From the IMG/VR virus record IMGVR_UViG_3300036398_002063, positions 1-27,061 of that record: a stretch of 27,061 nt of DNA; one strand, given 5' to 3'. A program made the position numbers and the translations under genes. The notes beneath the pieces are model-generated. The model did not search any database, was not told where the DNA came from, and saw only the letters and a list, made by a program, of their open reading frames with translations. This DNA is from a virus. Positions within the stretch are counted from its first letter, which is position 1; every line of letters starts with the position of its first letter. Positions 1-11,952 of this stretch are shown piece after piece.

Positions 1-460
1 GTTTTGCTTCTGTTACGTTAGCATCTTTAATTTTTGCTGTTTCTACAGAGTCTGAAGCAAGCATTGTTGCTGTAACTGTTCCAGTATCACCAGATGTAAC
101 TACAGTACCTGATACGTTAGGAAGTGTAATTGTACGATCTGCTGTTGGGTCAACTACTGTAAGAGTTGTTTCGTAATCATTTGCTGTTGAGCCTTCGAAG
201 GTAATTTGTGTATCGAATACACCAACTGCTGCTGGTGCTGACCACTCAACGCCATATGTTGCACCTGAGTTTGCTGTAAGAACTTGACCATTTGTGCCAA
301 CGCCTAAACGAGCAACTGCATCGTCTGCACTACCAACAATCAAATCACCTTTAGCGTCAACGACGCCTGCGGTTACTACATTTTTTCCGTTGACAGTCGC
401 AGTTGATCCTTCAACTACCAGTCCTGCCTTTACTCTAAAATCTTTTGTTACTGTTGCCAT
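1..460 (-). CDS. Tail-fibre-like structural protein (C-terminus outside the window)
   Basis: Read on the minus strand from ATG at 460, preceded by a clear AAGGAG ribosome site; the frame stays open to the window edge, so only the N-terminal 153 residues are seen. Residues about 35-70 carry a module rich in Lys-Gly-Asp and the string VGTNGQVLTANSG, followed by a Trp-containing EWSAP segment. The same module recurs in the protein at 4890-5420. Such modules are common in phage tail-fibre and appendage proteins, where they form beta-rich repeats. It is the last visible member of the minus-strand tail block. No receptor-binding domain is visible, so the exact role is inferred from sequence style and context. 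Confidence 0.7.
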   Translation of the reverse strand, partial: MATVTKDFRVKAGLVVEGSTATVNGKNVVTAGVVDAKGDLIVGSADDAVARLGVGTNGQVLTANSGATYGVEWSAPAAVGVFDTQITFEGSTANDYETTLTVVDPTADRTITLPNVSGTVVTSGDTGTVTATMLASDSVETAKIKDANVTEAK

Positions 461-476
461 TTATATATCTCCTTAG

Positions 477-923
477 TTAGGCCTTTAACCCAATACGCAA
501 ATAGCGTAGGGTTATTGGTGTTTGCCCACCTACAGGAACTACAGTTAGTGAAACTGTGTCTCCCGCTCTAGACACGGAGATGGTGCCAATATTCCCATCG
601 TTGTCTACTGTTCCATATTCACTAACGCTTACATCTGTAGCATCAGGGACTATGGTTAATTCTGTGGCCCAATATTTATTTGCACCACCAGAAGTCTTTT
701 TAATTGAGATCATGTACTTTACAGATCTCCACTCGCTTGCCAAAAAGTTATCAAAAATTGTTGAGTTCTCAATACCATTGATTGTGGACTCGTTGTTTCC
801 ATCTGAACCAAGATCTGTTGATCTTGCAGAGGTGCTGTCAATCAAATCTTCATAGTTTGTTTGACTTGGACGGTCTCCAGTCTGGAACAGAGACTTGATG
901 CTTGCAATTGATAATTTTGCCAT
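477..923 (-). CDS. Small phage structural protein, tail-appendage block
   Basis: 148 residues, start ATG at 923. The N-terminus (MAKLSIASIKSLFQTGDRPS) followed by a TNYEDLIDS segment resembles a leader seen in phage virion proteins whose body is a beta-rich domain; the rest is Ser/Thr/Val-rich and fits a beta-sandwich. There are no cysteines and no signal peptide. A TATAAT box at 930-935 (minus strand) ends only 6 nt before the ATG and no ribosome site is visible, so its own transcript would be leaderless. Assignment as a virion component rests on composition and neighbours; no catalytic motif is present. Confidence 0.65.
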   Translation of the reverse strand: MAKLSIASIKSLFQTGDRPSQTNYEDLIDSTSARSTDLGSDGNNESTINGIENSTIFDNFLASEWRSVKYMISIKKTSGGANKYWATELTIVPDATDVSVSEYGTVDNDGNIGTISVSRAGDTVSLTVVPVGGQTPITLRYLRIGLKA

Positions 924-944
924 GTCTGTATTATATCATGTATT

Positions 945-1166
945 TTAAAGTATATAGTTAGATAGGCCTATGATCTGAAGAGGGATTGCGGGAATGTTGC
1001 CAATAGAGTTTGGCACCTGTATTGCTGTAAACCTTATTCTAAATGGCAGTACTGAGTTTATACTTATACCACGACTTGGCTGGGTAATTTCTACATTTGG
1101 AAAAGAAACTCTTTCAATGGCTTTTGTAAAAACTGGGGTATTGTTATTTATAGCAACTGTTGCCAT
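945..1166 (-). CDS. Hypothetical protein, tail-appendage block
   Basis: 73 residues, start ATG at 1166, sharing one base with the stop codon of the upstream gene (TAATG), so translation is probably coupled. The protein is Ile/Val/Asn/Pro-rich with alternating hydrophobic residues, consistent with a small beta domain, and has no cysteines or membrane segment. I do not recognise a family. Its tight coupling to the Ig-like gene at 1166-1579 suggests the two are needed together, perhaps as parts of one appendage. Confidence 0.6.
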   Translation of the reverse strand: MATVAINNNTPVFTKAIERVSFPNVEITQPSRGISINSVLPFRIRFTAIQVPNSIGNIPAIPLQIIGLSNYIL

Positions 1167-1579
1167 TAGTTTGTAACATCCTCAAGGAGAGTAATCTTCC
1201 CTTGAGCAACTGTCCAAACAAGTACGTCTTGTGGAAGACGAATTTCAATATCAAAAATATCATTTGTTCTTAACTGTGCGGTTTGAGCGGCAGTGAGGTT
1301 AACCTTAAATTCACCATCGTCATCTGATAAATCTTGCTCTGGGGTAATTGAAAAAATTAACGTTGCAGTATCTGTAATTATTTGAGGATCAACTGGAGTA
1401 GTTGGTCTTTTAAATTCTACCTCAATGTCCCAATCAGGAATAACTAAAGGCTGCTTTGAGTCATCTGTAAGATAAACCATAAAGGATGCTGTATCTCCCT
1501 TTACAATAGTCCAATTAACAAATGGTGGTTTTTCACCAATATCGTATGTGGATGCGCCTTGCCCTCTATAAGTAGCCAT
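1166..1579 (-). CDS. Ig-like / BppU-N-like tail-appendage protein
   Basis: 137 residues. The N-terminal part contains NWTIVKGDTASFMVYL, and the C-terminus ends in a GKITLLEDV strand. The same architecture (aromatic, x-[KR]GD-[ST], alternating hydrophobic strand, closing G-x-I-x-hydrophobic segment before D-[IV]) appears in the proteins at 6017-6376 and 7223-7636, so this is one of three paralogues. The fold resembles the N-terminal Ig-like domain of phage baseplate upper proteins (BppU type), which attach tail appendages; this match is by eye. A TATAAT box (1589-1594, minus) lies 9 nt before ATG with no ribosome site. It overlaps the next gene by one base. Confidence 0.65.
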   Translation of the reverse strand: MATYRGQGASTYDIGEKPPFVNWTIVKGDTASFMVYLTDDSKQPLVIPDWDIEVEFKRPTTPVDPQIITDTATLIFSITPEQDLSDDDGEFKVNLTAAQTAQLRTNDIFDIEIRLPQDVLVWTVAQGKITLLEDVTN

Positions 1580-1656
1580 AGTTCTTTTATTATATCATAT
1601 AAGTAATCATGTATTTTGTTATTAAATCGTTATAATTCAAAACAAGGGGGTTGGCC

Positions 1657-1685
1657 TTGTACTAGTCAGTAGATTGTGTTATACT
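1657..1685 (+). promoter_or_regulatory. Promoter for the lysozyme-like gene
   Basis: TTGTAC (1657-1662), 17-base spacer, TATACT (1680-1685). The 5' leader then holds an inverted repeat, TGAGGCC-AAAAC-GGTCTCA (about 1690-1708, one G-T pair), that could be an operator or leader hairpin. A strong AGGAGG (1721-1726) precedes ATG at 1735. Confidence 0.75.
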
Positions 1686-1734
1686 AGATTATGAGGCCAA
1701 AACGGTCTCATTCGTTTCTTAGGAGGTAAAAACT

Positions 1735-2274
1735 ATGAGAGAAACAAAAGTGTGGTTTGGGATAATGCTATTGGTGGTTGTGTCTGCTGTTTTTGCAAAC
1801 AAGGCAAACGCTACTAGCAAAAATAATTTACTAATTAAGCCTGTTGAAATAAATGCTGCCGCCCCTAAAGCGGCATTAGTTGTTTCTAAGGCTAAAAAAT
1901 TAGAAAGTTATGAAAATAAAGTACATCTTACAGATGTTCAACTAAAAGAACTTTTATCCCTTGTGGGATTTAAAGGAAAAGATTTGGTTGTGGCCTGGGC
2001 CATAGCCAAAAAAGAGTCTAATGGTCGTCCTTTAGCATTTAATGGAAACCATAAGACTGGCGACTCATCCTATGGGATGTTTCAAATAAACATGATAGAC
2101 AACCTTGGCCCAGATAGAAGAGATAAATTTGATTTGGACCATAATGCCGATTTGTTTAACCCAGTAAAAAATGCTGAAATAGCATACTACATGTCTAAGG
2201 GTGGAGAAAACTGGTCTGCTTGGAAGGGTATAACACCCAGAACAAAAGAGTGGATGAAAAAGTTCCCCTATTAA
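1735..2274 (+). CDS. Secreted lysozyme / lytic-transglycosylase-like protein
   Basis: 179 residues, ATG at 1735 after AGGAGG. Residues 1-26 are a signal peptide or N-terminal anchor: Lys/Arg start, hydrophobic core IMLLVVVSAVF, possible cleavage after ANA. Residues about 66-179 resemble an SLT/lysozyme-like domain: AIAKKESNGRP supplies the likely catalytic Glu94, and SYGMFQINM (112-120) is the typical substrate-groove motif that follows it; a late AEIAYYMSKGGENWSAW segment matches the end of such domains. The likely role is cleavage of peptidoglycan glycan strands, as an endolysin or wall-active enzyme exported by Sec. It is the only plus-strand gene among the minus-strand tail genes, with its own promoter and a terminator after it. 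Confidence 0.85.
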   Translation: MRETKVWFGIMLLVVVSAVFANKANATSKNNLLIKPVEINAAAPKAALVVSKAKKLESYENKVHLTDVQLKELLSLVGFKGKDLVVAWAIAKKESNGRPLAFNGNHKTGDSSYGMFQINMIDNLGPDRRDKFDLDHNADLFNPVKNAEIAYYMSKGGENWSAWKGITPRTKEWMKKFPY

Positions 2275-2289
2275 AATTTAAAGAGGAAT

Positions 2290-2330
2290 AAAAAATCCCC
2301 CTTGGCTATATGCCTTGGGGGTATTTTTTA
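2290..2330. terminator. Bidirectional intrinsic terminator
   Basis: CCCCC...GGGGG and GGC...GCC arms (2297-2321) separated by a two-base mismatch, with A-runs on the left and a T-run (TATTTTTTA) on the right. It can stop the plus-strand lysozyme transcript and minus-strand readthrough from 2338, which converge here. Confidence 0.85.
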
Positions 2331-2337
2331 TACTTAA

Positions 2338-2709
2338 TTACACAGGGATGGATACTGGCTCTCCATCACCATCTCGTCCAATAAATGTGTTAGTATCAGC
2401 ATCATATGCCCAACCTACTGCTGGATGCAACAGTGGGTCTGACACTAAGTGTGTGATATCAACTACTGTTGGATCGCTCATAAACATTGCAGCAAGTCTA
2501 TCATCTGTATAAATTATATCTACAACTTCATCATCAACTACAAATGCAATAGCCTGTGCTCTTTCGTGAACTGGCTTTCCGTTTAAAGGGTTAGCACTAG
2601 ACTTTGCCTGTTGAAACATTTCCTCTGTAAGTGTTGGATCTCCTGCTGCCGCTCTGAATTCTTCCAAAGAATTAATATCAGCCATATTAGTGAATTCTTC
2701 ATCTGCCAT
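2338..2709 (-). CDS. Acidic phage protein, tail-appendage block
   Basis: 123 residues, ATG at 2709 with AAAGGAG upstream. The N-terminal part is acidic and helical (SLEEFRAAAGDPTLTEEMFQ); the middle has short beta strands around VVDIIYTDDRLAAMFMSDP and VVDITHLV; the end, VGWAYDADTNTF, resembles a VGW-Y-D-x(4)-F motif found near the C-terminus of many small phage proteins encoded beside tail fibres. No cysteines, no signal peptide. It may be a fibre-associated or assembly protein, but the function is unknown. It is separated by 12 bases from the upstream six-cysteine gene and ends at the shared terminator. Confidence 0.65.
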   Translation of the reverse strand: MADEEFTNMADINSLEEFRAAAGDPTLTEEMFQQAKSSANPLNGKPVHERAQAIAFVVDDEVVDIIYTDDRLAAMFMSDPTVVDITHLVSDPLLHPAVGWAYDADTNTFIGRDGDGEPVSIPV

Positions 2710-2721
2710 TTTTTTTCTCCT

Positions 2722-2940
2722 TTATCCTATTGCTTCCCATTTACCTATTGGACAACTTGCATTTTCCAACTTTGCTTTAAGTAACATTATACACCCACAT
2801 TCTTTACACTGCTTGGTAGCCTGTATAAGTTGTGGGCATTTTTTGCATATTGACATTCTATAGTCAAAAGTGTCTTTGTCAACCTTTTTAATTGATGGAT
2901 TTAATAAATCCCATGGTTTTGCGCTTCTTTTGTTCTCCAT
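2722..2940 (-). CDS. Six-cysteine small protein (DUF6171-like)
   Basis: 72 residues. Six cysteines are arranged C32-x2-C35, C45-x2-C48-x-C50 and C63, closing with CPIGKW. The pattern fits a small protein binding one or two zinc ions, or an Fe-S cluster. A second copy is encoded at 10241-10441 with the same spacing (C30, C33, C43, C46, C48, C61 and CPVGKW). The resemblance to DUF6171 is from memory of the cysteine layout. It sits between virion-type genes, but nothing shows that it is a virion protein. A GGGGG stretch upstream of ATG 2940 may serve as ribosome site. Confidence 0.75.
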   Translation of the reverse strand: MENKRSAKPWDLLNPSIKKVDKDTFDYRMSICKKCPQLIQATKQCKECGCIMLLKAKLENASCPIGKWEAIG

Positions 2941-2958
2941 TTTACATACCCCCGTATA

Positions 2959-4494
2959 TTAGAATCCACTAGTTTCAAAACCGTCAACAGTAGATCCTTG
3001 TGTAATTGTTCCAGATGCTGCTTTTATAATTCCAAAATTATTTCCTTTTGTGGCAAATGATGGAGTTGACGTTCTTTGTGTGTAAGCAGTTCCTGAAAAG
3101 TTTGTTCCGCCATATGAATCAATAACAACGTTTCCGTTTGACTGTGTTGTTACTTTCATTGAGTTAATTTTTGCAACATTGGTACGTGCATCGGCTGCTA
3201 AGAGGGCAGTTGCAGTTCCAATAGAGTGATCACTTAATGTTGTAGCACTTCCACTCTCTACTTTAATTGTTCTTAAATAGTTTGTAGTTGTTGTAACTGT
3301 AGCATTTGTTCCACAGTGTCCAGCGTAGTTTGCGGGACCATTATTAAATCCTTGACCACCGTGAGGTGTCCATGCTCCGCCGCCAACATACCACCAACAG
3401 TCTCCTCCGTCGCCACAGTTGCAGACATTTCCGTAACTAGGTACATTCGTGCCCCACGCAATTCCATAAGGCTGTGAACAAGTACGAGTTACACCAGTAC
3501 AGCACCCACTTGGGGTACATCCATTGCTATAACAGGCGGCACTAGTGTATCCTCCACAGGAATTTGATGTTGCGTCTGCAGAAAACGAATATGATGCCAT
3601 ATATCTATTTGCATCTGTTGCCCAATAAACTAAACCAGTTCCTGGTGTAAGTGTTCCAGCCTGAGTTAATCCATTTTGGCTATTCATTGTTATTGTGGCA
3701 AGAGCGGGAACAGCAGAATCTGACTGTGCTTGTGACCCATTAGCATACCAAACACCAGCACGGTTTGTCCATGATTGTCCTGAAGTTGTTGTTGCTCCAA
3801 GGGTAAGACTTGTTGTTCGATTAAATGTGTCAGCATCTGCGGTAGGAATAGCATTTGGTGTAATTGAGTTTGTTGTTCCACCAAGAGATGATCCATTAGC
3901 GTTGACTGCAATAACATCAAATGTATAAGCCTGGTTTTGTGCAAATGAGCCAGTAACGGTCAAAGGAGATGAAGATCCACTAACGGTTAAAGCAATTGAT
4001 GGGGTACTTTGAACTAAATAACTTGTGATTGAAGAACCACCAGTTGCATTAACTGTAAATGGAATTGAAACTGTTGTGACATTTGTTTTAGTCGCTGTTC
4101 CAGCAGTCGGTGCTTGTGGAACAGTAGTTGCAGTAATTGCAGAAGTTGCTGATGAACTTACTGTCTCTGATGGTGTGCTTCCACCTACTGCTTTAGCAGT
4201 AAATGTATATGATACTCCAGATTGAAGTCCTGTAACTGTAACTGGGCTGGATCCTGTTCCAATGAATGAACCAGGATTTGATGCTACAGTGTAGGATATT
4301 GGAATTCCACCTTTTGCATTAGCAGTTACAGCAACTGTTGCTGCTCCATTGTTATACGCACGGCCTGTACCAACATTTGTGGCAGTACCAATAGTTGGCA
4401 CTTCTGGGACGTCGGCAATTTTTGCATTACCCGCTGATGCATCGTTATACTTCTTACCAGTTAGGTTAGAATCACTTGTTTTTCTAATTGCCAT
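2959..4494 (-). CDS. Large tail adhesin with two Fn3-like domains and a Cys-rich insert
   Basis: 511 residues, ATG at 4494 after AAAGGAT. Residues about 30-122 and 127-213 are two fibronectin-III-like repeats (P-x-A/I-P-T starts, paired YTFTAKAVG and YTFDVIAVN strands). Residues about 218-305 and 400-505 look like a jelly-roll or lectin-type sandwich (FNRT, VYWATDANRY, NSMKVTTQSNGNVVIDSY). Between them, residues 313-394 hold ten cysteines in a Gly/Asn/Trp-rich stretch. This is unusual for a cytoplasmically assembled phage protein and suggests a disulphide- or metal-stabilised tip. The likely role is receptor or sugar binding at the virion surface. It is the longest gene of the tail block; sections of it show up as long open frames on other strands, but those are shadows. 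Confidence 0.8.
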   Translation of the reverse strand: MAIRKTSDSNLTGKKYNDASAGNAKIADVPEVPTIGTATNVGTGRAYNNGAATVAVTANAKGGIPISYTVASNPGSFIGTGSSPVTVTGLQSGVSYTFTAKAVGGSTPSETVSSSATSAITATTVPQAPTAGTATKTNVTTVSIPFTVNATGGSSITSYLVQSTPSIALTVSGSSSPLTVTGSFAQNQAYTFDVIAVNANGSSLGGTTNSITPNAIPTADADTFNRTTSLTLGATTTSGQSWTNRAGVWYANGSQAQSDSAVPALATITMNSQNGLTQAGTLTPGTGLVYWATDANRYMASYSFSADATSNSCGGYTSAACYSNGCTPSGCCTGVTRTCSQPYGIAWGTNVPSYGNVCNCGDGGDCWWYVGGGAWTPHGGQGFNNGPANYAGHCGTNATVTTTTNYLRTIKVESGSATTLSDHSIGTATALLAADARTNVAKINSMKVTTQSNGNVVIDSYGGTNFSGTAYTQRTSTPSFATKGNNFGIIKAASGTITQGSTVDGFETSGF

Positions 4495-4515
4495 TTTTTA
4501 TCCTTTATCTAAGAA

Positions 4516-4848
4516 TTATGATATTTCAGAACCGAATGCTGCAAATGACATATTTGCAGATGATGCATAAACACGAACAACGTCTCCTGCTGCTAGTGTA
4601 AGACCAAGTGTGAGCATTATTGAATCGCTTGCTGCGACAGTTGCGCCGTAAACAATGTAGTGTTTTGCAGCAGTAGTTGAATCCGCTGCTGGGCGAACTA
4701 CAATACGATATGTTCCTGATGTGCCTGCTTGATTACAAACAGAAACTGTTGAAATTACTGTAGAAGTTGATGATGGGACTGTATACAGTGTTGTTTCTGT
4801 TGTAGCACTTGGGGCATTCTGTGCTAAAACTTTATAGGTTGTTGCCAT
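4516..4848 (-). CDS. Small beta-rich virion protein
   Basis: 110 residues, start ATG 4848 with AAGGATCC upstream. Ala/Ser/Thr/Val-rich with regular alternation (TTLYTVPSSTSTVISTVSVCNQ, YRIVVRPA, GDVVRVYASS), typical of a compact beta-barrel or jelly-roll. Small proteins of this composition with a TLYTVP segment are frequent beside phage tail fibres; the role may be a decoration or trimerising base. One cysteine, no signal peptide. A TACAAT box (4874-4879, minus) could be its own promoter. Function inferred from composition and neighbourhood only. Confidence 0.65.
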   Translation of the reverse strand: MATTYKVLAQNAPSATTETTLYTVPSSTSTVISTVSVCNQAGTSGTYRIVVRPAADSTTAAKHYIVYGATVAASDSIMLTLGLTLAAGDVVRVYASSANMSFAAFGSEIS

Positions 4849-4889
4849 GGGTGGATCCTTCCGTTATTTGTATATTGTATCATAGATTT

Positions 4890-5420
4890 TTAGCATCCCA
4901 TTAACATTATTATGTCTGGCATGATATCTATGGTTCCCCCCAGAGATACTGGAGAATTATTTATTGTTATTGCTGAATTTGTCAATGAAGAATTTGGTAT
5001 GTTGCTTAGTGTATTGCTTAACCCACTTATTGTTTTGTTGGAAAGTGTTACCACATTGCTTAATCCAACTTCTGGGCTAGTCCATTCCAGTCCAGTAGTT
5101 GTTCCTGAATTTGCAGTTAAAACTTTACCGTTTGTTCCAACCGCAAGAACGCTAACTGTCGACGCAGAGGAAGCGCTTATGATGGCCCCTTTTGCTGTTA
5201 AAACTGCACTTCCAATTGTATCAATATTATTAATTTGTTCTTGTAGGTCATTAATCGTGTACGCTACTGATGGACTTACTAAGTTTGAGGGATTTGTTTC
5301 ATTTATGTCAAAATCATATGATCCGTAGTGGTAGGCTCTTAGCGCTGCTTGAATGTCGGCAGAATCTGCGTACCCTGGTATTTTTGTGGGTATTAACTCG
5401 CCAATTGCTTCAACTGCCAT
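4890..5420 (-). CDS. Tail-fibre-like protein
   Basis: 176 residues, ATG 5420, ribosome site GAGGTG, and a TGTGGTATAAT -10 box at 5438-5443 (minus). The N-terminal part (GELIPTKIPGYADSADIQAALRAYHYG) is an appendage-attachment type segment; a short helix ITDLQEQI-like region follows (NDLQEQINNI), then the module LTAKGAIISASSAST...VLAVGTNGKVLTANSG shared with the protein at 1-460, and finally Asn/Ser-rich short repeats (SNKTISGLSNTLSNIPNSSLTNS) that may form a beta-helical shaft. The likely role is a thin fibre or fibre base. It lies downstream of the gene at 5439-6014. Confidence 0.7.
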   Translation of the reverse strand: MAVEAIGELIPTKIPGYADSADIQAALRAYHYGSYDFDINETNPSNLVSPSVAYTINDLQEQINNIDTIGSAVLTAKGAIISASSASTVSVLAVGTNGKVLTANSGTTTGLEWTSPEVGLSNVVTLSNKTISGLSNTLSNIPNSSLTNSAITINNSPVSLGGTIDIMPDIIMLMGC

Positions 5421-5438
5421 ATTTTCACCTCATAGAGA

Positions 5439-6014
5439 TTATACCACAGTTGTGTTTACTGAAATAAACAAGTATACAGAAACATCTGTGGCAGTTAGTG
5501 CTTGCCAAGATCCAGAGTACTTCATGGCTTTAAGGGTTATTGCAAGGTTTGATCCAGAAACCGCAACATTTGATATTGAAGATGAAACTAGGTCTGAGTA
5601 TTTAATGTCATGCTGAACATTGAAGTTTGATGCTACCAGTGGAGATCCTGTAACAGTAACTATAGAAGAGATTGGAACTAAAATTGTTGAAGAGGTTCCT
5701 GAAGTAAAGTCAACTGTAGTGTCTAGTCGTGCATGCAGTGCTGGATTAACCTTTAGAATTGATTCCCATTGATTTGCTCCAGGTACCGAAATGTACTGAT
5801 ACATGTATGAATAATCTGCACCAGGTGATACATTTATGTATAGGTCATTTAAGTAAATTGTTTCTGTAAAATTTTTTGTATTTGGGTCACCACTTCCAAC
5901 AAATACCTTGCTACCTCTTTGCCCTGTGGGACCAATATCAACTGCAACTTCTATAATCTCTGGTGGAGCAATAATAGCAAGATCATCAATATTTACGGGG
6001 ATAGAAAGTGACAT
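5439..6014 (-). CDS. Minor tail / appendage protein with short collagen-like turn
   Basis: 191 residues, ATG 6014, two bases after the stop of the upstream gene, so probably coupled. Residues 1-35 end in a short GPTGQRGSKVFVGSGDP stretch, a collagen-like hinge followed by the pattern FVGSGDPN..., L.DLYIN...G..Y.Y often seen in phage fibre proteins. The C-terminal half is Ser/Val/Thr-rich and beta-like. It likely forms part of a fibre together with the neighbouring Ig-like (6017-6376) and collagen-like (6401-7135) proteins. No enzymatic motif is visible. Confidence 0.65.
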   Translation of the reverse strand: MSLSIPVNIDDLAIIAPPEIIEVAVDIGPTGQRGSKVFVGSGDPNTKNFTETIYLNDLYINVSPGADYSYMYQYISVPGANQWESILKVNPALHARLDTTVDFTSGTSSTILVPISSIVTVTGSPLVASNFNVQHDIKYSDLVSSSISNVAVSGSNLAITLKAMKYSGSWQALTATDVSVYLFISVNTTVV

Positions 6015-6016
6015 TG

Positions 6017-6376
6017 TTATACTGCTCCAGAAATATCATCTGTTACAGTTATTGTTCCAGTCACTAGGGTGTGAGTAATTCCAGTGGTGCCAACTATCTC
6101 AACATCATATACATAAGATCCAGGGGTTAGGGTTCTTCCAACGGTTGGTGTTATCTTACATGTAATTATATCTGTGGTAGAGTCAACAACAGCAGAAGCA
6201 ATTTTTTGTGTTCCCGCAGAACCTCTTACATTTGCAATGATAAACTTCGCACTTGAACCGTCTCCAGTGAATGAGTCTAATGAGAACGTTGTTCCATTTG
6301 CAGACTTTGGGCTAACAACAAACTCAAAAGTGTCACCACGATAGTAACTAAAATTATATGTACCTGGAAATGCCAT
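6017..6376 (-). CDS. Ig-like / BppU-N-like tail-appendage protein
   Basis: 119 residues, ATG 6376 with a strong AGGAGG (6381-6386, minus) and a TGGTATAAT box just upstream (6392-6397). FSYYRGDTFEFVV near the N-terminus and GTITVTDDIS at the end match the proteins at 1166-1579 and 7223-7636, making a three-member family within one tail block. The usual role of such domains is to dock an appendage on the baseplate or tail tip. It is the first gene of a tightly packed pair with 5439-6014. Confidence 0.65.
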   Translation of the reverse strand: MAFPGTYNFSYYRGDTFEFVVSPKSANGTTFSLDSFTGDGSSAKFIIANVRGSAGTQKIASAVVDSTTDIITCKITPTVGRTLTPGSYVYDVEIVGTTGITHTLVTGTITVTDDISGAV

Positions 6377-6400
6377 TATTCCTCCTAATCCATTATACCA

Positions 6401-7135
6401 CTAAGAAACTGAGATATACATACCTTTTAAAATAATACTGGACTCGTTGTCAGTTCTTGCCTGAATGATTCCGCCTTCTGATCTTATTTTTGCAATATCT
6501 ATATATAGGGTTTGATTAAAGGACATCTCGTATGGGTACTTGTATTTAAGCATTCCTATATATCCTGTCGGAGATTCAACTTTTGGGATAAAAGTTCTAA
6601 TCCACGCCTCAGTATTATTTGTGTCGGTACTTAAAACAATATCATATCTTATATCAACCTTAGCCCCAACCTTTAACTGCTTAAAGTTAATTCTTTGGGT
6701 CATTGGATTCCACAAAGAAACATGCCCTGAAGGTAAAAAAGTCAAAGTACTGTTGGTTGGATCATCTGTCATTAAAATATCTACCCACCCATCGTCGCCT
6801 CTTTCGGGTCCAAGCAAAATTGGTTTTTTATTTTGGTTTTGATAATACGCCCATCCAGGATATTGTCCTGATGGACTTTCGTATCCTTCTCCTCCGCCTT
6901 TTCCAGGATCGCCTTTAGGGCCTTGTGGACCCTCCTTACCCTCTTTACCTGGAACTCCTCTTTCGCCTCTTTCTCCTGGCGGCCCTGGAGGTCCTGGTGG
7001 TCCTACTTCCCCTTTTTCTCCTTGAATTCCTGGTACGGCTATATACTCAGTATTGGCTAGTTTATCAACTCTTGTTTCTTTTATAGCCTCAGAGTATCTT
7101 GATTTAGGAGCATCCATATTTTTTGATATGGCCAT
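6401..7135 (-). CDS. Collagen-like tail-fibre protein
   Basis: 244 residues. Residues 36-80 are fifteen uninterrupted Gly-X-Y triplets, including three successive GPP triplets and charged GER/GEK/GKE triplets. This is a collagen-type triple helix, a known way for phage fibres to make a trimeric stalk. Residues 1-35 form a short charged head, and residues about 90-244 a globular beta-rich tip ([37 protein letters not shown]). The product should be trimeric. No good ribosome site precedes ATG 7135, but a tiny coupled gene ends four bases upstream. Confidence 0.85.
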
Positions 7136-7138
7136 TTT

Positions 7139-7222
7139 TTATTTCTTAACTTTAAATATGGTGCCGTTTATTTTTATTAATGGAGGAAGTTTAATGTTAG
7201 TATCTTTAACTTTAATTATCAT
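7139..7222 (-). CDS. Tiny basic protein (27 residues)
   Basis: ATG 7222 follows directly on the TAA of the upstream gene, and TAA ends four bases before ATG of the collagen-like gene. The peptide MIIKVKDTNIKLPPLIKING plus TIFKVKK is basic, with two matching strands (IIKVKD, IFKVKK). No family recognised. The perfect fit between two stop/start junctions is the main support. Confidence 0.5.
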   Translation of the reverse strand: MIIKVKDTNIKLPPLIKINGTIFKVKK

Positions 7223-7636
7223 TTAAGATATCCCACTAGTAGTTCTTGTGCTTGCTGGAGAAACATCTCCTAGTACGCATATTGTTCCAATTACTGGAGT
7301 CCATGTTATTACTGAAGCCCCATCTGGAACTATTGCCTGAAGGTCAAAAGAAAGTTCTGCGACCACTGACTTATATTTTGTTCCCCAGTTTACTGTAATG
7401 TCTGCTGGGGCTGTAACGGTTACAACACTTCCGTCTACTGTTACTACAAGTTCATCCAAAACGTCTGAGGTTGGATCGTAGGCTGTTGCAGAGTATGTCC
7501 AGCCTTCGGTATCAAATTCTGTTACTTCGTCATTTTCAAGAAGTGAAACTGTGAACGAAGAAGAGTCACCACGAACGACTGTCCACTGTATATTTGCTGG
7601 GGTGGCCCCAAATTTTTCGATTGTAGGTGAGCACAT
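7223..7636 (-). CDS. Ig-like / BppU-N-like tail-appendage protein
   Basis: 137 residues from ATG 7636. A longer open frame reaches TTG 7714, but a TATAAT box at 7644-7649 (minus) ends 7 nt before ATG 7636, so the transcript would begin at this codon and the longer start is unlikely. IQWTVVRGDSSSFTVSL and the closing GTICVLGDVS segment mark it as a paralogue of 1166-1579 and 6017-6376. It is a predicted beta-sandwich attachment domain of the tail or baseplate. It heads the run of genes leading into the collagen-like fibre. Confidence 0.65.
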   Translation of the reverse strand: MCSPTIEKFGATPANIQWTVVRGDSSSFTVSLLENDEVTEFDTEGWTYSATAYDPTSDVLDELVVTVDGSVVTVTAPADITVNWGTKYKSVVAELSFDLQAIVPDGASVITWTPVIGTICVLGDVSPASTRTTSGIS

Positions 7637-7643
7637 ATCAATG

Positions 7644-7649
7644 ATTATA
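7644..7649 (-). promoter_or_regulatory. TATAAT -10 box, leaderless start at 7636
   Basis: On the minus strand TATGGTATAAT is followed by 7 nt and ATG. No ribosome site is present. Similar GGTATAAT boxes stand before the genes starting at 5420, 6376, 8269 and 12169, defining a tail-gene promoter class without an obvious -35 box. Confidence 0.6.
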
Positions 7650-7864
7650 CCATAATAAATAGGATTGGCCCCTAGGGGCAGTGGGGTGGGGGTAGAGAGC
7701 AACCTAGGAGCCAACCTTCATGATTATAACATTCATTTATGTATTAGTTATTAAGCATCGTACAATATCCTGTTAATTAGTAACAAAAAGTTATAATTGG
7801 AATTTAAAAATATAAAGCCAGAGTGTATTGAAATTGTTATAAAAGAGTTATAAAGGTATACATA

Positions 7865-7880
7865 CCAAATGTCCGTTTTG
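7865..7880 (+). repeat. TGTCCG box
   Basis: CCAAATGTCCGTTTTG, 16 bases identical to 13881-13896, and one of six places with an AAATGTCCG-type box. It is probably a protein-binding site. Confidence 0.45.
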
Positions 7881-7984
7881 TCTCAATAGTCCAGGGCATT
7901 GATAGTGTATACTTAAAATATATAAAGAAAAGAAATAACTAACTAGTAAGGTTTTTAAGATATCTTATATATTATATATAGTAG

Positions 7985-8269
7985 TTATTTAGAACGAGAA
8001 ACATACTCAAGTAATATATCGTACATATGATCTAGTTTATCACTAGTTGCTTTACGAAGTTGTTTTGCTTCTTCTTGTTCCGACTTAATTGCCTTGATCT
8101 CATCACGCATACTGGTTCCGCCGTTAGTTTTGGTTTCGGCACGAATATCGCATACCGCTTCGTGAATAGGCTTGATCTGGACTTTAATATACCAACGAAT
8201 AGCACCAACTATGATTGCTCCAATTGAAAGCAAAGTAAGAATAAATTGAGCCCAATCGGTAGTAGTCAT
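7985..8269 (-). CDS. Holin-like small membrane protein
   Basis: 94 residues, ATG 8269. One membrane segment at residues about 7-28 (WAQFILTLLSIGAIIVGAIRWY) is followed by a charged, helical cytoplasmic or periplasmic tail (IKAIKSEQEEAKQLRKATSDKLDHMYDILLEY) that may be coiled coil. This topology matches the DUF2746-type holin-like proteins frequent in actinobacterial phages, though no sequence signature proves it. A holin would let the lysozyme at 1735-2274 or another endolysin act, though a Sec-exported lysozyme would need it less. A TATAAT box (8279-8284, minus) lies 9 nt before ATG. Confidence 0.6.
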   Translation of the reverse strand: MTTTDWAQFILTLLSIGAIIVGAIRWYIKVQIKPIHEAVCDIRAETKTNGGTSMRDEIKAIKSEQEEAKQLRKATSDKLDHMYDILLEYVSRSK

Positions 8270-8342: not shown

Positions 8343-8373
8343 TATTACGAAGAACTAAAAACAAGGGGTTATT

Positions 8374-9978
8374 ATGAATTCAAATAAAATTTTGATAGTT
8401 GGTGGAGGTTCTGCTGGATGGATGACTGCTGCAACTTTAATAAAGGCATATCCCGACAGAGATATAACCCTTCTGGAAAGCAAACAAATACAAAAAATTG
8501 GTGTTGGTGAGTCAACCAATGCAGGTTTACCAGCATGGCTTTCTTTGTTAGATATAGACTACAAAGACTTTATGGCTTACACTGATGCAGCGTATAAATT
8601 AAGTATAAAGTTTACAGATTTTCATTCTATAGGGGATAACGGTTTTCATTATCCTTTTGGTCATCCTACCCTTCAAAATTTTAAAACAAATCCACCAGGA
8701 GATTGGCATTTTTTAAAACTTATTGAGCCTGAAACAACAAGACAAAGTTATGTAAATTCCATATTCCCAAGTTCTGTACTTATAGATACTAACAAGATGT
8801 ATTTCCCCAAAAACACATATGAGATGGATGGGTTTAGCATGAAGAGAGACTTTGCGTTACAGTTTGACGCTATTAAGTTTGCCTCATGGTTAAAAGAAAG
8901 ATATGCTATGCCAAGGGGTGTAAAACATATTGAGGCAGATGTTGTAAAAGTAAATACTGATGACGATGGAGTATCAAGCATAGTTCTTAGTGATGGAACA
9001 GAGTTATCTGCCGATATTTATATAGACTGCACTGGATTTAAGGGGTTGTTAATAAAAGAAGCACTACAAACACCTTTTGAGTCACATGCTGAGCAACTTC
9101 CTATCAATAGAACCTGGGCGGTTCAATTGCCTTATGAAGATCCAGACAGGGAAGTTGTTAATTATACAAACTGTACTGCATTAGGGTATGGATGGGTCTG
9201 GAATGCCCCACTATATTCTAGAATAGGTACTGGGTATGTTTATTCTGATAGATTTACTACACCAGAAGATGCCTTAGAAGAATTTAAAGAGCACTTGAGA
9301 AAAGAGCACGGAGCACACAGAATAACCGATGATCTTAAATTTAGAGATATTCCGTTTGAGTCTGGAGTAGTGTCAAAGCCATGGAATAAAAATGTTGCCG
9401 CTATAGGTCTATCTGGATTCTTTTTAGAGCCACTAGAATCAACGGGGCTAATGTTTATTCATCAATTTGCAGTAATGCTTACAAAAATGATAATGAATCC
9501 AGTTATCAATAAGTTTGATCAAGAAGCATATAATTTTGAAGTAAAAAGAACTATTAATAATTATTCCGCATTTGTTCAACTACACTATCTATTATCAAGT
9601 CGTAGGGATACAGAGTTTTGGCGGTACATGACAAGCAGAGATGTTCTTCCAAAGACAAGGAACGATGCTAATATGACTACCTTTTTGGCAGAGATAAGAG
9701 GCAAACTAAATACTCAAAATTTTGCTATATCAATTCTTGAGGGTTTTCATTGTATTGCAGTTGGACACGAATGGTATCCAATTAGCCCATTGTCACTTAA
9801 TGAGGTCAAATACAATACACCCTCGATTGATCCAGTGGAAATTGCAAGATCGTTTAAGTCAAACTCTGAGCAACTTAGGGCAAAGTGGTTTAACGTAATA
9901 AAGGACGCACCAACACATTATCAGTTCTTAAAAGAAAATTATCACAGCGCAAAATCCGATCAAGAGTTGCCACTTTAA
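8374..9978 (+). CDS. Flavin-dependent tryptophan-halogenase-like enzyme
   Basis: 534 residues, the usual size of the family. VGGGSAGW (9-16) is the FAD-binding GxGxxG motif; GVGESTNAGLP (43-53) follows in the expected place; Lys75 in AAYKLSIKF aligns with the catalytic lysine of PrnA-type enzymes; GYGWVWNAPL (271-280) is the family's WxWxxP signature, with Ala where Ile is usual; EPLESTG (352-358) supplies the conserved glutamate (Glu355 or Glu352) near the lysine. These motifs predict a FADH2- and O2-dependent enzyme making a bound halogenating species and adding Cl, Br or I to an aromatic substrate. A viral enzyme of this family, VirX1 from a cyanophage, is known to iodinate. No flavin reductase gene is visible nearby. 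The substrate is unknown. Confidence 0.92.
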   Translation: MNSNKILIVGGGSAGWMTAATLIKAYPDRDITLLESKQIQKIGVGESTNAGLPAWLSLLDIDYKDFMAYTDAAYKLSIKFTDFHSIGDNGFHYPFGHPTLQNFKTNPPGDWHFLKLIEPETTRQSYVNSIFPSSVLIDTNKMYFPKNTYEMDGFSMKRDFALQFDAIKFASWLKERYAMPRGVKHIEADVVKVNTDDDGVSSIVLSDGTELSADIYIDCTGFKGLLIKEALQTPFESHAEQLPINRTWAVQLPYEDPDREVVNYTNCTALGYGWVWNAPLYSRIGTGYVYSDRFTTPEDALEEFKEHLRKEHGAHRITDDLKFRDIPFESGVVSKPWNKNVAAIGLSGFFLEPLESTGLMFIHQFAVMLTKMIMNPVINKFDQEAYNFEVKRTINNYSAFVQLHYLLSSRRDTEFWRYMTSRDVLPKTRNDANMTTFLAEIRGKLNTQNFAISILEGFHCIAVGHEWYPISPLSLNEVKYNTPSIDPVEIARSFKSNSEQLRAKWFNVIKDAPTHYQFLKENYHSAKSDQELPL

Positions 9979-10240: not shown

Positions 10241-10441
10241 ATGAGCGATGATGTTAATATAGGTGATTGGCTTAATCCTTTTTCGCCTAGAGCCAGTGAA
10301 GACTTGGCTGAGTCCCGTTTGAAAATTTGTCAAGGTTGTGAGTTCTTTAAGAAAAATGGATCCCGCTGTAAAAAATGTAATTGCTTTATGAAGGCTAAGA
10401 CTTCTCTGGAACAAGCAAAATGTCCTGTTGGTAAATGGTAG
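10241..10441 (+). CDS. Six-cysteine small protein (DUF6171-like), second copy
   Basis: 66 residues with cysteines at 30, 33, 43, 46, 48 and 61 and the ending CPVGKW. It is clearly related to the protein at 2722-2940, which lies in the tail block on the other strand. Both have a W-x-L-x-P segment near the N-terminus (DWLNPF here, WDLLNP there). A zinc or Fe-S site is likely. Standing between the halogenase and two mutually similar genes, it may belong to that functional group, but the reaction or partner is unknown. Confidence 0.75.
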   Translation: MSDDVNIGDWLNPFSPRASEDLAESRLKICQGCEFFKKNGSRCKKCNCFMKAKTSLEQAKCPVGKW

Positions 10442-10481: not shown

Positions 10482-11201
10482 ATGTTTAAGAAAAATGAAA
10501 AACCATTAATTGAGTTTGTAGCAACAATAGAAGGTTTGGAAGAATTTGAAGAGATTACTCCGAAGCCAACAAAATCTTTTATTCCACAGTGGTTTAAAGA
10601 TGCACCAAATAATCCAGACTCTATAAAAATGTGTCCCTCTTTTCCAGATTTTTTCTCACAAGGATATGTAATACCAGCATGGCAAGATATTTTGCTACAG
10701 TATGACAAAAAAACTATGAACTGGAATATTCAATCTGCAGGAGTATTCTTTGAATGGGGTATCCACCACAATGGTCAGTTTTTAGATTTTGCAGATGTAA
10801 CTACCCCCGTTGATAAAAAAGAAGTAAGTATTATATTTAAGGCAAACTCTCCTTGGTCTATTGTTACACCAAAAGGTTGGAGTGTCTTGCAGTTGCCTAT
10901 GTTTTATAACTTTGAGCATGAATTTAGCGTTACTCCAGGAATTATAGATACAGATCTTTATCATGAAATTAATATGCAGGTCTTGTTCCCTGCAGATAAA
11001 AATGAAATATTCATTAAGAGAGGAACCCCTCTGGCGATGTTTATTCCTTTTAAAAGAACCAAATACAAACATGTTGTAAGAAAACAAAATAAAAAAGACA
11101 AGAAAGTGGTAAGTCAAAATCACCTCTACTTAGAGTCTCATTTTCTAGGAAGTGGTGCTTATAGAAAAATGCAAAGAAAAAGAGATAAAGAAAGTGAATA
11201 A
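10482..11201 (+). CDS. Phage protein of unknown function, paralogue of the next gene
   Basis: 239 residues, ATG 10482 after AAAAGGGG; a TATACT box lies at 10456-10461. The N-terminal half contains MCPSFPDFFSQGYVIPAW, then a beta-rich half with SPWSIVTPKGWSVLQLPMFY and TPLAMFIPFKR; the C-terminus is basic (KHVVRKQNKKDKK). The order C-P-[AS]-F-x-D, a proline-rich Phe/Tyr strand, and a G-x-P-L-x-[MY] strand recurs in the next gene, so the two are distant paralogues. The composition suggests a jelly-roll type barrel. It may match the uncharacterised DUF6065 group, which I cannot verify here. Context hints at cooperation with the halogenase. Confidence 0.7.
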   Translation: MFKKNEKPLIEFVATIEGLEEFEEITPKPTKSFIPQWFKDAPNNPDSIKMCPSFPDFFSQGYVIPAWQDILLQYDKKTMNWNIQSAGVFFEWGIHHNGQFLDFADVTTPVDKKEVSIIFKANSPWSIVTPKGWSVLQLPMFYNFEHEFSVTPGIIDTDLYHEINMQVLFPADKNEIFIKRGTPLAMFIPFKRTKYKHVVRKQNKKDKKVVSQNHLYLESHFLGSGAYRKMQRKRDKESE

Positions 11202-11952
11202 AAAACCATTAAAGGTGTACTGGGCCCCAGGAGTATATAACTCAGAAGAGGACCTATCATTTTTTTACAGTAAGCCCGAAAGTCTTTTTAACAATGCCCG
11301 AAAGTTTCGTAAAAAAGAAAATTCACAACCAGGAATTCTTGCTTGTCCTGCATTTACAGATCTCTACAAAAGAGTTGCAGTCTTTACTTCTCCAATAACA
11401 TGTAAATATGAATTTGATTATACAGATAAAAATAAAATGCTTAGACCTATGACCAAAGCAGAATTACCCCTAATCCGTAACTCTAGAGAAGACATGTTTG
11501 ATTATGGTCCTATATTCTTTTTATCCCTTGGTCCTTTGCTTTTTGCAGAAGAGCCAGTTGTAATGAGATTTACACCACCATATTTTCATAAACCACAATA
11601 TACGCAAGATGGAACCGTCATGCCAGGAGAGTTTAATATTGGTGAATGGTTTAGGCCACTTAGTTTTGAGTTACAGATGTGGAATCATAAAGGAGAAATT
11701 AAGTTTGTTGAAGGTGAGCCTTTAATGTATCTTGAATTTTTTACAGATCGTCCCATTGAACTAATACGGTTTGACCACACAGAGGTTATACATAAATATG
11801 TAAAAACCATGCTAAAGGTAAGTACTGCATTTGGAAAATCTCCTATTGCTAAAAAATATGAAAGATTTAGGAATGTTGGAATGCGTGAAAAGATTCTTAA
11901 AGAGATTAAGAACAACCTTGTTGGCAACGAATCAGTTATGCTGGAAAACTAA
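11194..11952 (+). CDS. Phage protein of unknown function, paralogue of the previous gene
   Basis: 252 residues from GTG 11194, which overlaps the previous stop by eight bases; an earlier in-frame GTG at 11152 would give a long overlap and is less likely. ILACPAFTDLYKRVAVFTSP matches the Cys-Pro-Phe segment of the previous protein; PPYFHKPQ...PGEFNIGEWFRPLSFELQM and EGEPLMYLEFFTDRP match its LPMFYNFEHEF...PGIIDTDLYHEINMQ and RGTPLAMFIPF. The basic C-terminus is helical. No catalytic residues can be named. The two probably arose by duplication and may form a heterodimer. Confidence 0.7.
   Translation: MNKKPLKVYWAPGVYNSEEDLSFFYSKPESLFNNARKFRKKENSQPGILACPAFTDLYKRVAVFTSPITCKYEFDYTDKNKMLRPMTKAELPLIRNSREDMFDYGPIFFLSLGPLLFAEEPVVMRFTPPYFHKPQYTQDGTVMPGEFNIGEWFRPLSFELQMWNHKGEIKFVEGEPLMYLEFFTDRPIELIRFDHTEVIHKYVKTMLKVSTAFGKSPIAKKYERFRNVGMREKILKEIKNNLVGNESVMLEN

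Follow-up and report, generated by a model that had tools for sequence, protein, structure and literature searches.

A VirX1-clade flavin-dependent halogenase beside phage tail-fibre genes and its possible action on virion adhesins

The halogenase locus

The window, that is the whole stretch of DNA analysed here, consists of a 27,061-base virus record in which a halogenase gene is located between a divergent tail-fibre region and further genes on its own strand. The relevant features are the following.

2-8269, minus strand: tail-fibre/baseplate region, divergent from the halogenase
2959-4494, minus strand: fibronectin-III protein of the fibre region, candidate adhesin
6401-7135, minus strand: collagen-like tail-fibre protein with 17 Gly-X-Y repeats, candidate substrate
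8363-8368, plus strand: AAGGGG ribosome-binding site, read directly, 5 nt 5' of the halogenase ATG
8374-9978, plus strand: flavin-dependent halogenase gene (534 aa, PF04820, PHROG 2928, VirX1 clade) with an ATG start and no internal stop
8596-8598, plus strand: codon of the catalytic Lys75, invariant in 81/81 aligned sequences
9193-9210, plus strand: WVWNAP (residues 274-279), the WxWxIP signature with Ala278 (codon 9205-9207), the Ala being a clade trait
9427-9447, plus strand: EPLESTG (residues 352-358) with catalytic Glu355 and halide-site Thr357, the latter being Asn in 80/81 aligned sequences
10241-10441, plus strand: cysteine-rich protein of 66 aa, DUF6171-like, phrog_13558, between the halogenase and the 10482-11201 partner
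10482-11201, plus strand: recurrent partner, DUF6065-like, phrog_7084, with a predicted dUTPase-like fold
11152-11952, plus strand: phrog_17480 protein, ORF from GTG 11152 (GTG 11194 is possible too)

The identified neighbours of the halogenase are mostly virion proteins, and the fibre genes are on the strand opposite to it; the phage origin claimed by the first-pass annotation is borne out by the virus record and by the tail genes alongside. A homologue of the phrog_17480 protein adjoins the halogenase in a related locus, L002. Two cysteine-rich small proteins of the DUF6171-like type are encoded on opposite strands, one in the fibre region (2722-2940) and the other just beyond it (10241-10441). 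Moreover, in 19 loci (e.g., L002:11568-11861) a hydrophobic protein of 93-111 aa, always of one family, is encoded immediately 3' of the halogenase or nearby, its ORF often overlapping the halogenase stop codon; this family was not found in the window. Near matches to a promoter-like pattern number four in the window, where one is expected, the promoter scan of the window gave no excess over shuffles, and a promoter shared by the halogenase and its partner was rejected, the zero-mismatch pattern occurring only before the halogenase.

Family assignment and catalytic site

PF04820 matches residues 5-433 of the ORF (E 1.7e-99) and PHROG 2928, 'tryptophan halogenase', matches residues 4-518 (E 7.9e-137), while the dinucleotide-binding GxGxxG pattern is present as the FAD motif GGGSAG at residues 10-15. 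The dN/dS of the gene versus its relatives is 0.04-0.12; it is therefore maintained by selection, and these values together with the E-values exclude a chance match. That the ORF encodes a flavin-dependent halogenase is practically certain.

The catalytic site is intact. In the main alignment of 81 sequences (the window halogenase and 80 relatives with at least 38% identity), Lys75, Trp274, Trp276, Pro279, and Glu352 are each invariant (81/81), although these and the following residue counts are of non-independent events, since some of the sequences come from near-identical contigs. Glu355 does not vary in an alignment of 40 rows; based on the PrnA numbering Glu346-Ser347-Thr348, the catalytic glutamate is presumably this residue, the second Glu of EPLES. 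The family assignment of the first-pass annotation is thus confirmed, with the FAD motif, Lys75, and EPLESTG all in place, and its expectation of an active enzyme can be retained: judged from the catalytic residues, activity is highly probable.

Position 278, the Ile site of the WxWxIP signature, is Ile in 62/81 sequences, Ala in 13/81, and Thr in 6/81; Thr or Val also occurs among phage relatives, VirX1 has WVWNIP, and the window keeps both Trp residues and the Pro. The Ala278 halogenases are monophyletic (tree support 100/99). The replacement of Ile by Ala, previously taken as a possible pointer to another substrate or activity, is weakened in this role, because a conserved clade trait gives no sign of a lost or new activity; loss of function in particular was rejected, the trait being under purifying selection. 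The odd residue of the window is instead Thr357, the sole Thr among the 81 sequences, the other 80 having Asn. Its codon, ACG, is two bases away from either Asn codon, and a single base error is ruled out since the change from AAT or AAC requires two substitutions.

Structure and substrate pocket

The AlphaFold model of the halogenase (pLDDT 89.7), predicted from alignments built with the window and IMG/VR loci only, has the halogenase fold and superposes on VirX1 of cyanophage Syn10 (PDB 6QGM) with TM 0.90/0.92 and rmsd 2.3, in comparison to a TM of about 0.82 for PyrH or PrnA. VirX1, already named as a relative in the first-pass annotation, is the best solved match (E 1.1e-85) and is followed by Trp 5- and 6-halogenases; it shares 33% identity and the same catalytic residues with the window enzyme. 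Among the weakest halogenase matches is chain 5uao (E 4.9e-43), from an entry named Tryptophane-5-halogenase, which we take to be MibH.

The free tryptophan halogenases PrnA, PyrH, RebH, and XszenFHal share PF04820, the FAD motif, and the catalytic Lys and Glu with the window enzyme, from which they differ in the lower fold match (PrnA and PyrH) and in a substrate-pocket motif (XszenFHal). The reference for Trp 5-halogenases, L103 of Xenorhabdus szentirmaii DSM 16338, has near its C-terminus the XszenFHal-type motif FEEYSW, in a stretch that, as we assume from the PrnA and RebH structures, holds tryptophan. This motif is missing from the aligned window, VirX1, and phage relatives, the corresponding stretch of the window being AISILEGFHC. 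Because of this absence the window enzyme was not filed as a free-tryptophan halogenase, and 'tryptophan' is probably the wrong substrate name for it on sequence grounds. A characterised Trp 5-halogenase is known from X. szentirmaii (PMC6823310). For VirX1, PMC8407142 reports a large, open active site, which fits a bulky substrate, the iodination of many small aromatics in vitro, and a halide choice in which iodide is preferred to bromide and chloride, the last being known from VirX1 alone.

Distribution, phylogeny and probable host

Halogenase genes have been recognised in viruses from the early cyanophage genomes onwards, and VirX1 has been studied as a biocatalyst. The view that known viral relatives are few is not supported: tblastn retrieved 82 phage records with halogenase relatives, mostly Synechococcus phages and other cyanophages, IMG/VR contains 568 such stretches (top identity 67%), and a halogenase is reported in 20/153 cyanophages (PMC10452541). 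The window halogenase is not an isolated oddity; as an enzyme it is an ordinary member of a large family whose presence in viruses was already established. At least two halogenase genes per locus, some on opposite strands, occur in five loci (L017, L020, L043, L066, and L079).

In a maximum-likelihood tree of 66 sequences, 12 of which are from bacterial genome collections, the window, VirX1, and the cultured cyanophage halogenases form one 51-row clade with support 100/100. The clustering with non-halogenating FAD monooxygenases that would have spoken against the first-pass assignment was not seen, the gene grouping with a proven halogenase in a tree that held no non-halogenating monooxygenase. 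Ten of the 12 bacterial-collection rows fall outside the VirX1 clade, including the Xenorhabdus Trp halogenase group; the two inside it (L087 and L088) come from contigs titled as cellular (Euryarchaeota, Nonlabens) and are probably viral in origin. The halogenase of L088 (Nonlabens xiamenensis NODE_6) is nearly identical to its counterpart in cyanophage P-TIM40, and its contig resembles a cyanophage genome inside a bacterial assembly. A bacterial source of the clade was rejected, the nearest genome-collection matches having at most 38% identity and two of them looking viral.

Within the clade, the window belongs to a sister subclade of VirX1, from which it also differs in WVWNAP versus WVWNIP, in a probably actinobacterial host, and in lacking the adjoining run of 2-oxoglutarate (2OG) oxygenase genes. 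The closest cultured relative, in the same subclade, is the halogenase of Synechococcus phage Sf-CH11 (annotated tryptophan 7-halogenase; 43% identity over 97%); in contrast to the window virus, Sf-CH11 is a cyanophage and its halogenase is flanked by annotated 2OG oxygenases.

WhiB, which is said to be restricted to actinobacteria and the phages infecting them (PMC10611076), is present in 6/8 related contigs, some of them near-identical to each other, and the lake phage DSL-LC01 encodes WhiB proteins together with a tryptophan 7-halogenase (PMC10611076). The hosts of these related phages, to judge from their genes, are probably actinobacteria, and a cyanophage origin of the window is made unlikely. 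Since WhiB was not found in the window itself (a 27-kb record), we infer its host, which is probably a freshwater actinobacterium; a DUF932 protein of the window has 53% identity to Streptomyces phage proteins. A 17.5-kb contig from another sample (L112) encodes the 11206-11949 stretch of the window with 100% identity and, by this measure, comes from the same phage or from a very close one.

Gene neighbourhood in cultured phages and environmental loci

The halogenase usually sits in virion-structural regions. In 8/9 cultured cyanophages examined it lies among tail-fibre or adhesin genes; in particular, it is 3' of tail-fibre/structural genes and is followed by runs of small genes in Syn10, S-CREM1, Sf-CH11, S-RIM44, P-TIM40, Sf-FR1, P-RSM6, and S-WAM1, the exception being S-H35, where it is within a replication block. 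Oxygenases are encoded 3' of the halogenase in Syn10 (by Pfam) and in S-CREM1, Sf-CH11, Sf-FR1, and S-WAM1 (by record annotation), while in S-RIM44, P-TIM40, and P-RSM6 the genes at this position are annotated only as hypothetical. In S-CREM1 the second gene upstream of the halogenase is collagen-like, and downstream there are eight genes annotated as 2OG oxygenases together with a JmjC gene. In Syn10 the gene CPUG_00131 (530 aa, hypothetical in the record) was taken as VirX1 by length and match; this phage resembles the window in its neighbourhood, with a DUF6065-like partner downstream. Among actinophage relatives, a Gly_rich_2 protein is encoded just upstream of the halogenase in L002, and L012 has LamG upstream and Mtd_N downstream.

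The environmental neighbourhoods were compared in 47 dereplicated loci. A gene matching 2OG profiles, built from clusters with a PF13640 or PF13759 match in the representative (one below the curated cut-off), is present in 36/47 loci and within 3 kb of the halogenase in 34/47. The 2OG share is 92/394 among genes within 3 kb versus 18/280 among genes beyond 5 kb (Fisher p=1.5e-9, to be read as a guide only because genes within a locus are not independent). Genes near the halogenase also carry Gly_rich_2 (14), LamG (5), and Mtd_N (5) domains and match tail-fibre PHROGs; an enrichment of adhesin domains was not shown, Gly_rich_2 occurring in 14/113 genes within 3.5 kb versus 9/118 beyond 5 kb. 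Since genes beyond 5 kb are structural too, the 2OG enrichment is the one feature specific to the halogenase vicinity. One locus, L030, has none of the cassette families, and 5/47 loci have carbamoyltransferase genes. The labels of phrog_274, phrog_2297, and phrog_2954 (DNA endonuclease V, DNA endonuclease, or ferrochelatase) look doubtful; the proteins matched to them either resemble 2OG oxygenases in Pfam (in part below the cut-off) or are encoded among genes of that type.

In the window, a search with PF13640 and the three cluster profiles found no 2OG gene, and the hydroxylation/halogenation cassette is best read as reduced there. No carbamoyltransferase was found near the halogenase in the window or its closest relatives. 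A PF01613 search of 11 records, complete cyanophages in three cases, found no flavin reductase, a lack shared by the VirX1 phage Syn10.

The dUTPase-fold partner

The phrog_7084 family of the 10482-11201 gene recurs near the halogenase in environmental loci (L002, L010, L012, L014-L016, L021, L055, and others) and in Syn10, S-RIM44, S-CREM1, P-TIM40, Sf-FR1, Sf-FP1, and Sf-CH3. Members are known also from halophages, and Sf-CH8 has one surrounded by genes for photosynthesis and phosphate, the stretch examined there having no halogenase annotation. The only PDB matches of the partner profile are dUTPases, all of them weak (E 0.1-1.4). A model of the protein (pLDDT 80) gave with Foldseek 50 listed matches that are all dUTPase or dCTP deaminase; among these, E-values start from 1.6e-4, 11 are below 0.001, and TM to the query is only 0.25-0.38. 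Of the classical dUTPase motifs with the catalytic Asp, a GIIDTD-like stretch is kept in most rows; an RSS-type motif was not seen by eye. A dUTPase-like fold is probable from these models, and in S-CREM1 the relative is annotated as a triphosphate nucleotidohydrolase. The 11206-11949 protein was rejected as a second dUTPase-like protein (profile comparison probability under 1%).

Possible function

The reading that best accounts for the locus is an active VirX1-clade halogenase that modifies adhesins of its own virion within a hydroxylation/halogenation cassette, a reading with about an even chance of being correct; for the substrate as such, a virion or adhesin protein comes a little short of even, in agreement with one of the targets suggested in the first-pass annotation. 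In the proposed mechanism, FADH2 would be supplied by host flavin reductases, and O2 and halide would form hypohalous acid at the flavin, which would travel to Lys75 and from there reach an electron-rich aromatic ring, Glu355 acting as the base. The natural substrate would be a Trp or Tyr side chain of the phage's own receptor-binding or tail-fibre proteins, and the benefit would be in adhesin stability or receptor binding. The halogenase would be one member of a virion-protein modification cassette, which in most relatives also includes several 2OG-Fe(II)/JmjC-type oxygenases and often the dUTPase-fold partner. The 2OG enrichment, the fibre-gene context, the absent FEEYSW, and the lack of a phage flavin reductase suggest this reading, and a working analogy is given by MibH and SrpI, which act on peptide tryptophan, in the case of MibH after proline hydroxylation (PMC12615548). 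The opposite strand of the fibre genes and the missing 2OG gene in the window, S-H35, L030, the adhesin domains without clear concentration next to the gene, and the small aromatics accepted by VirX1 in vitro count against it, and the fibre regions could be no more than hot spots of insertion.

If the fibre-proximal site is such a hot spot, the neighbourhood says nothing on the substrate; this is unlikely, although T4-like cyanophages have been described as having hot-spot regions (PMC3037559) and genes 5-10 kb off are likewise structural, in view of the 2OG enrichment, of the repeated pairing of halogenase and DUF6065-like gene, and of a similar neighbourhood in actinophage relatives with different backbones. 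It would be compatible with either of two other readings. The halogenase could cooperate with a carbamoyltransferase and oxygenases in making a halogenated secondary metabolite or in decorating the surface polysaccharide of the infected cell, as proposed (metabolite or capsule) for the S-SSM6a gene cluster (PMC7824862); the carbamoyltransferase genes of a few loci and the broad iodination by VirX1 fit this possibility, which is nevertheless unlikely, as the most frequent neighbour families hold no adenylation, ligase, or other scaffold-making genes, the halogenase is located in virion-structural regions of unrelated phages, and the window and its closest relatives have no carbamoyltransferase nearby. 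Improbable, too, is a PrnA-like auxiliary gene halogenating a host metabolite, signal, or free tryptophan, with antibiotic protection or altered host physiology as the outcome: the cyanophage literature states antibiotic protection (PMC2984593, PMC9964418) and the overall family resemblance to Trp halogenases agrees with it, but the pocket motif of the Trp 5-halogenase reference is absent, the fold is nearer to VirX1 than to PrnA or PyrH, and the gene is in a structural region.

The modification of virion adhesins may be a new proposal for phage halogenases, as no statement of it was found in the accessible parts of the literature searched, nor any report of a natural substrate of viral halogenases. 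For the 2OG oxygenases of cyanophages, nitrogen-response or DNA-repair roles were considered earlier (PMC3037559), and protein modification is among the possible roles listed for S-CREM1 (PMC9964418). A broader extension, in which many aquatic phages from cyanophages to actinophages hydroxylate and halogenate their own receptor-binding proteins with the dUTPase-fold protein as a shared non-classical partner, is conceivable, on the unlikely side. The window halogenase is of interest because its neighbourhood makes the question of the native substrate testable. If virion adhesins are indeed its target, tail fibres carrying halogens would represent a novel type of virion chemistry and protein modification, and the many 2OG oxygenases of cyanophages, so far mostly read as nitrogen-response or DNA-repair genes, would be given a use.
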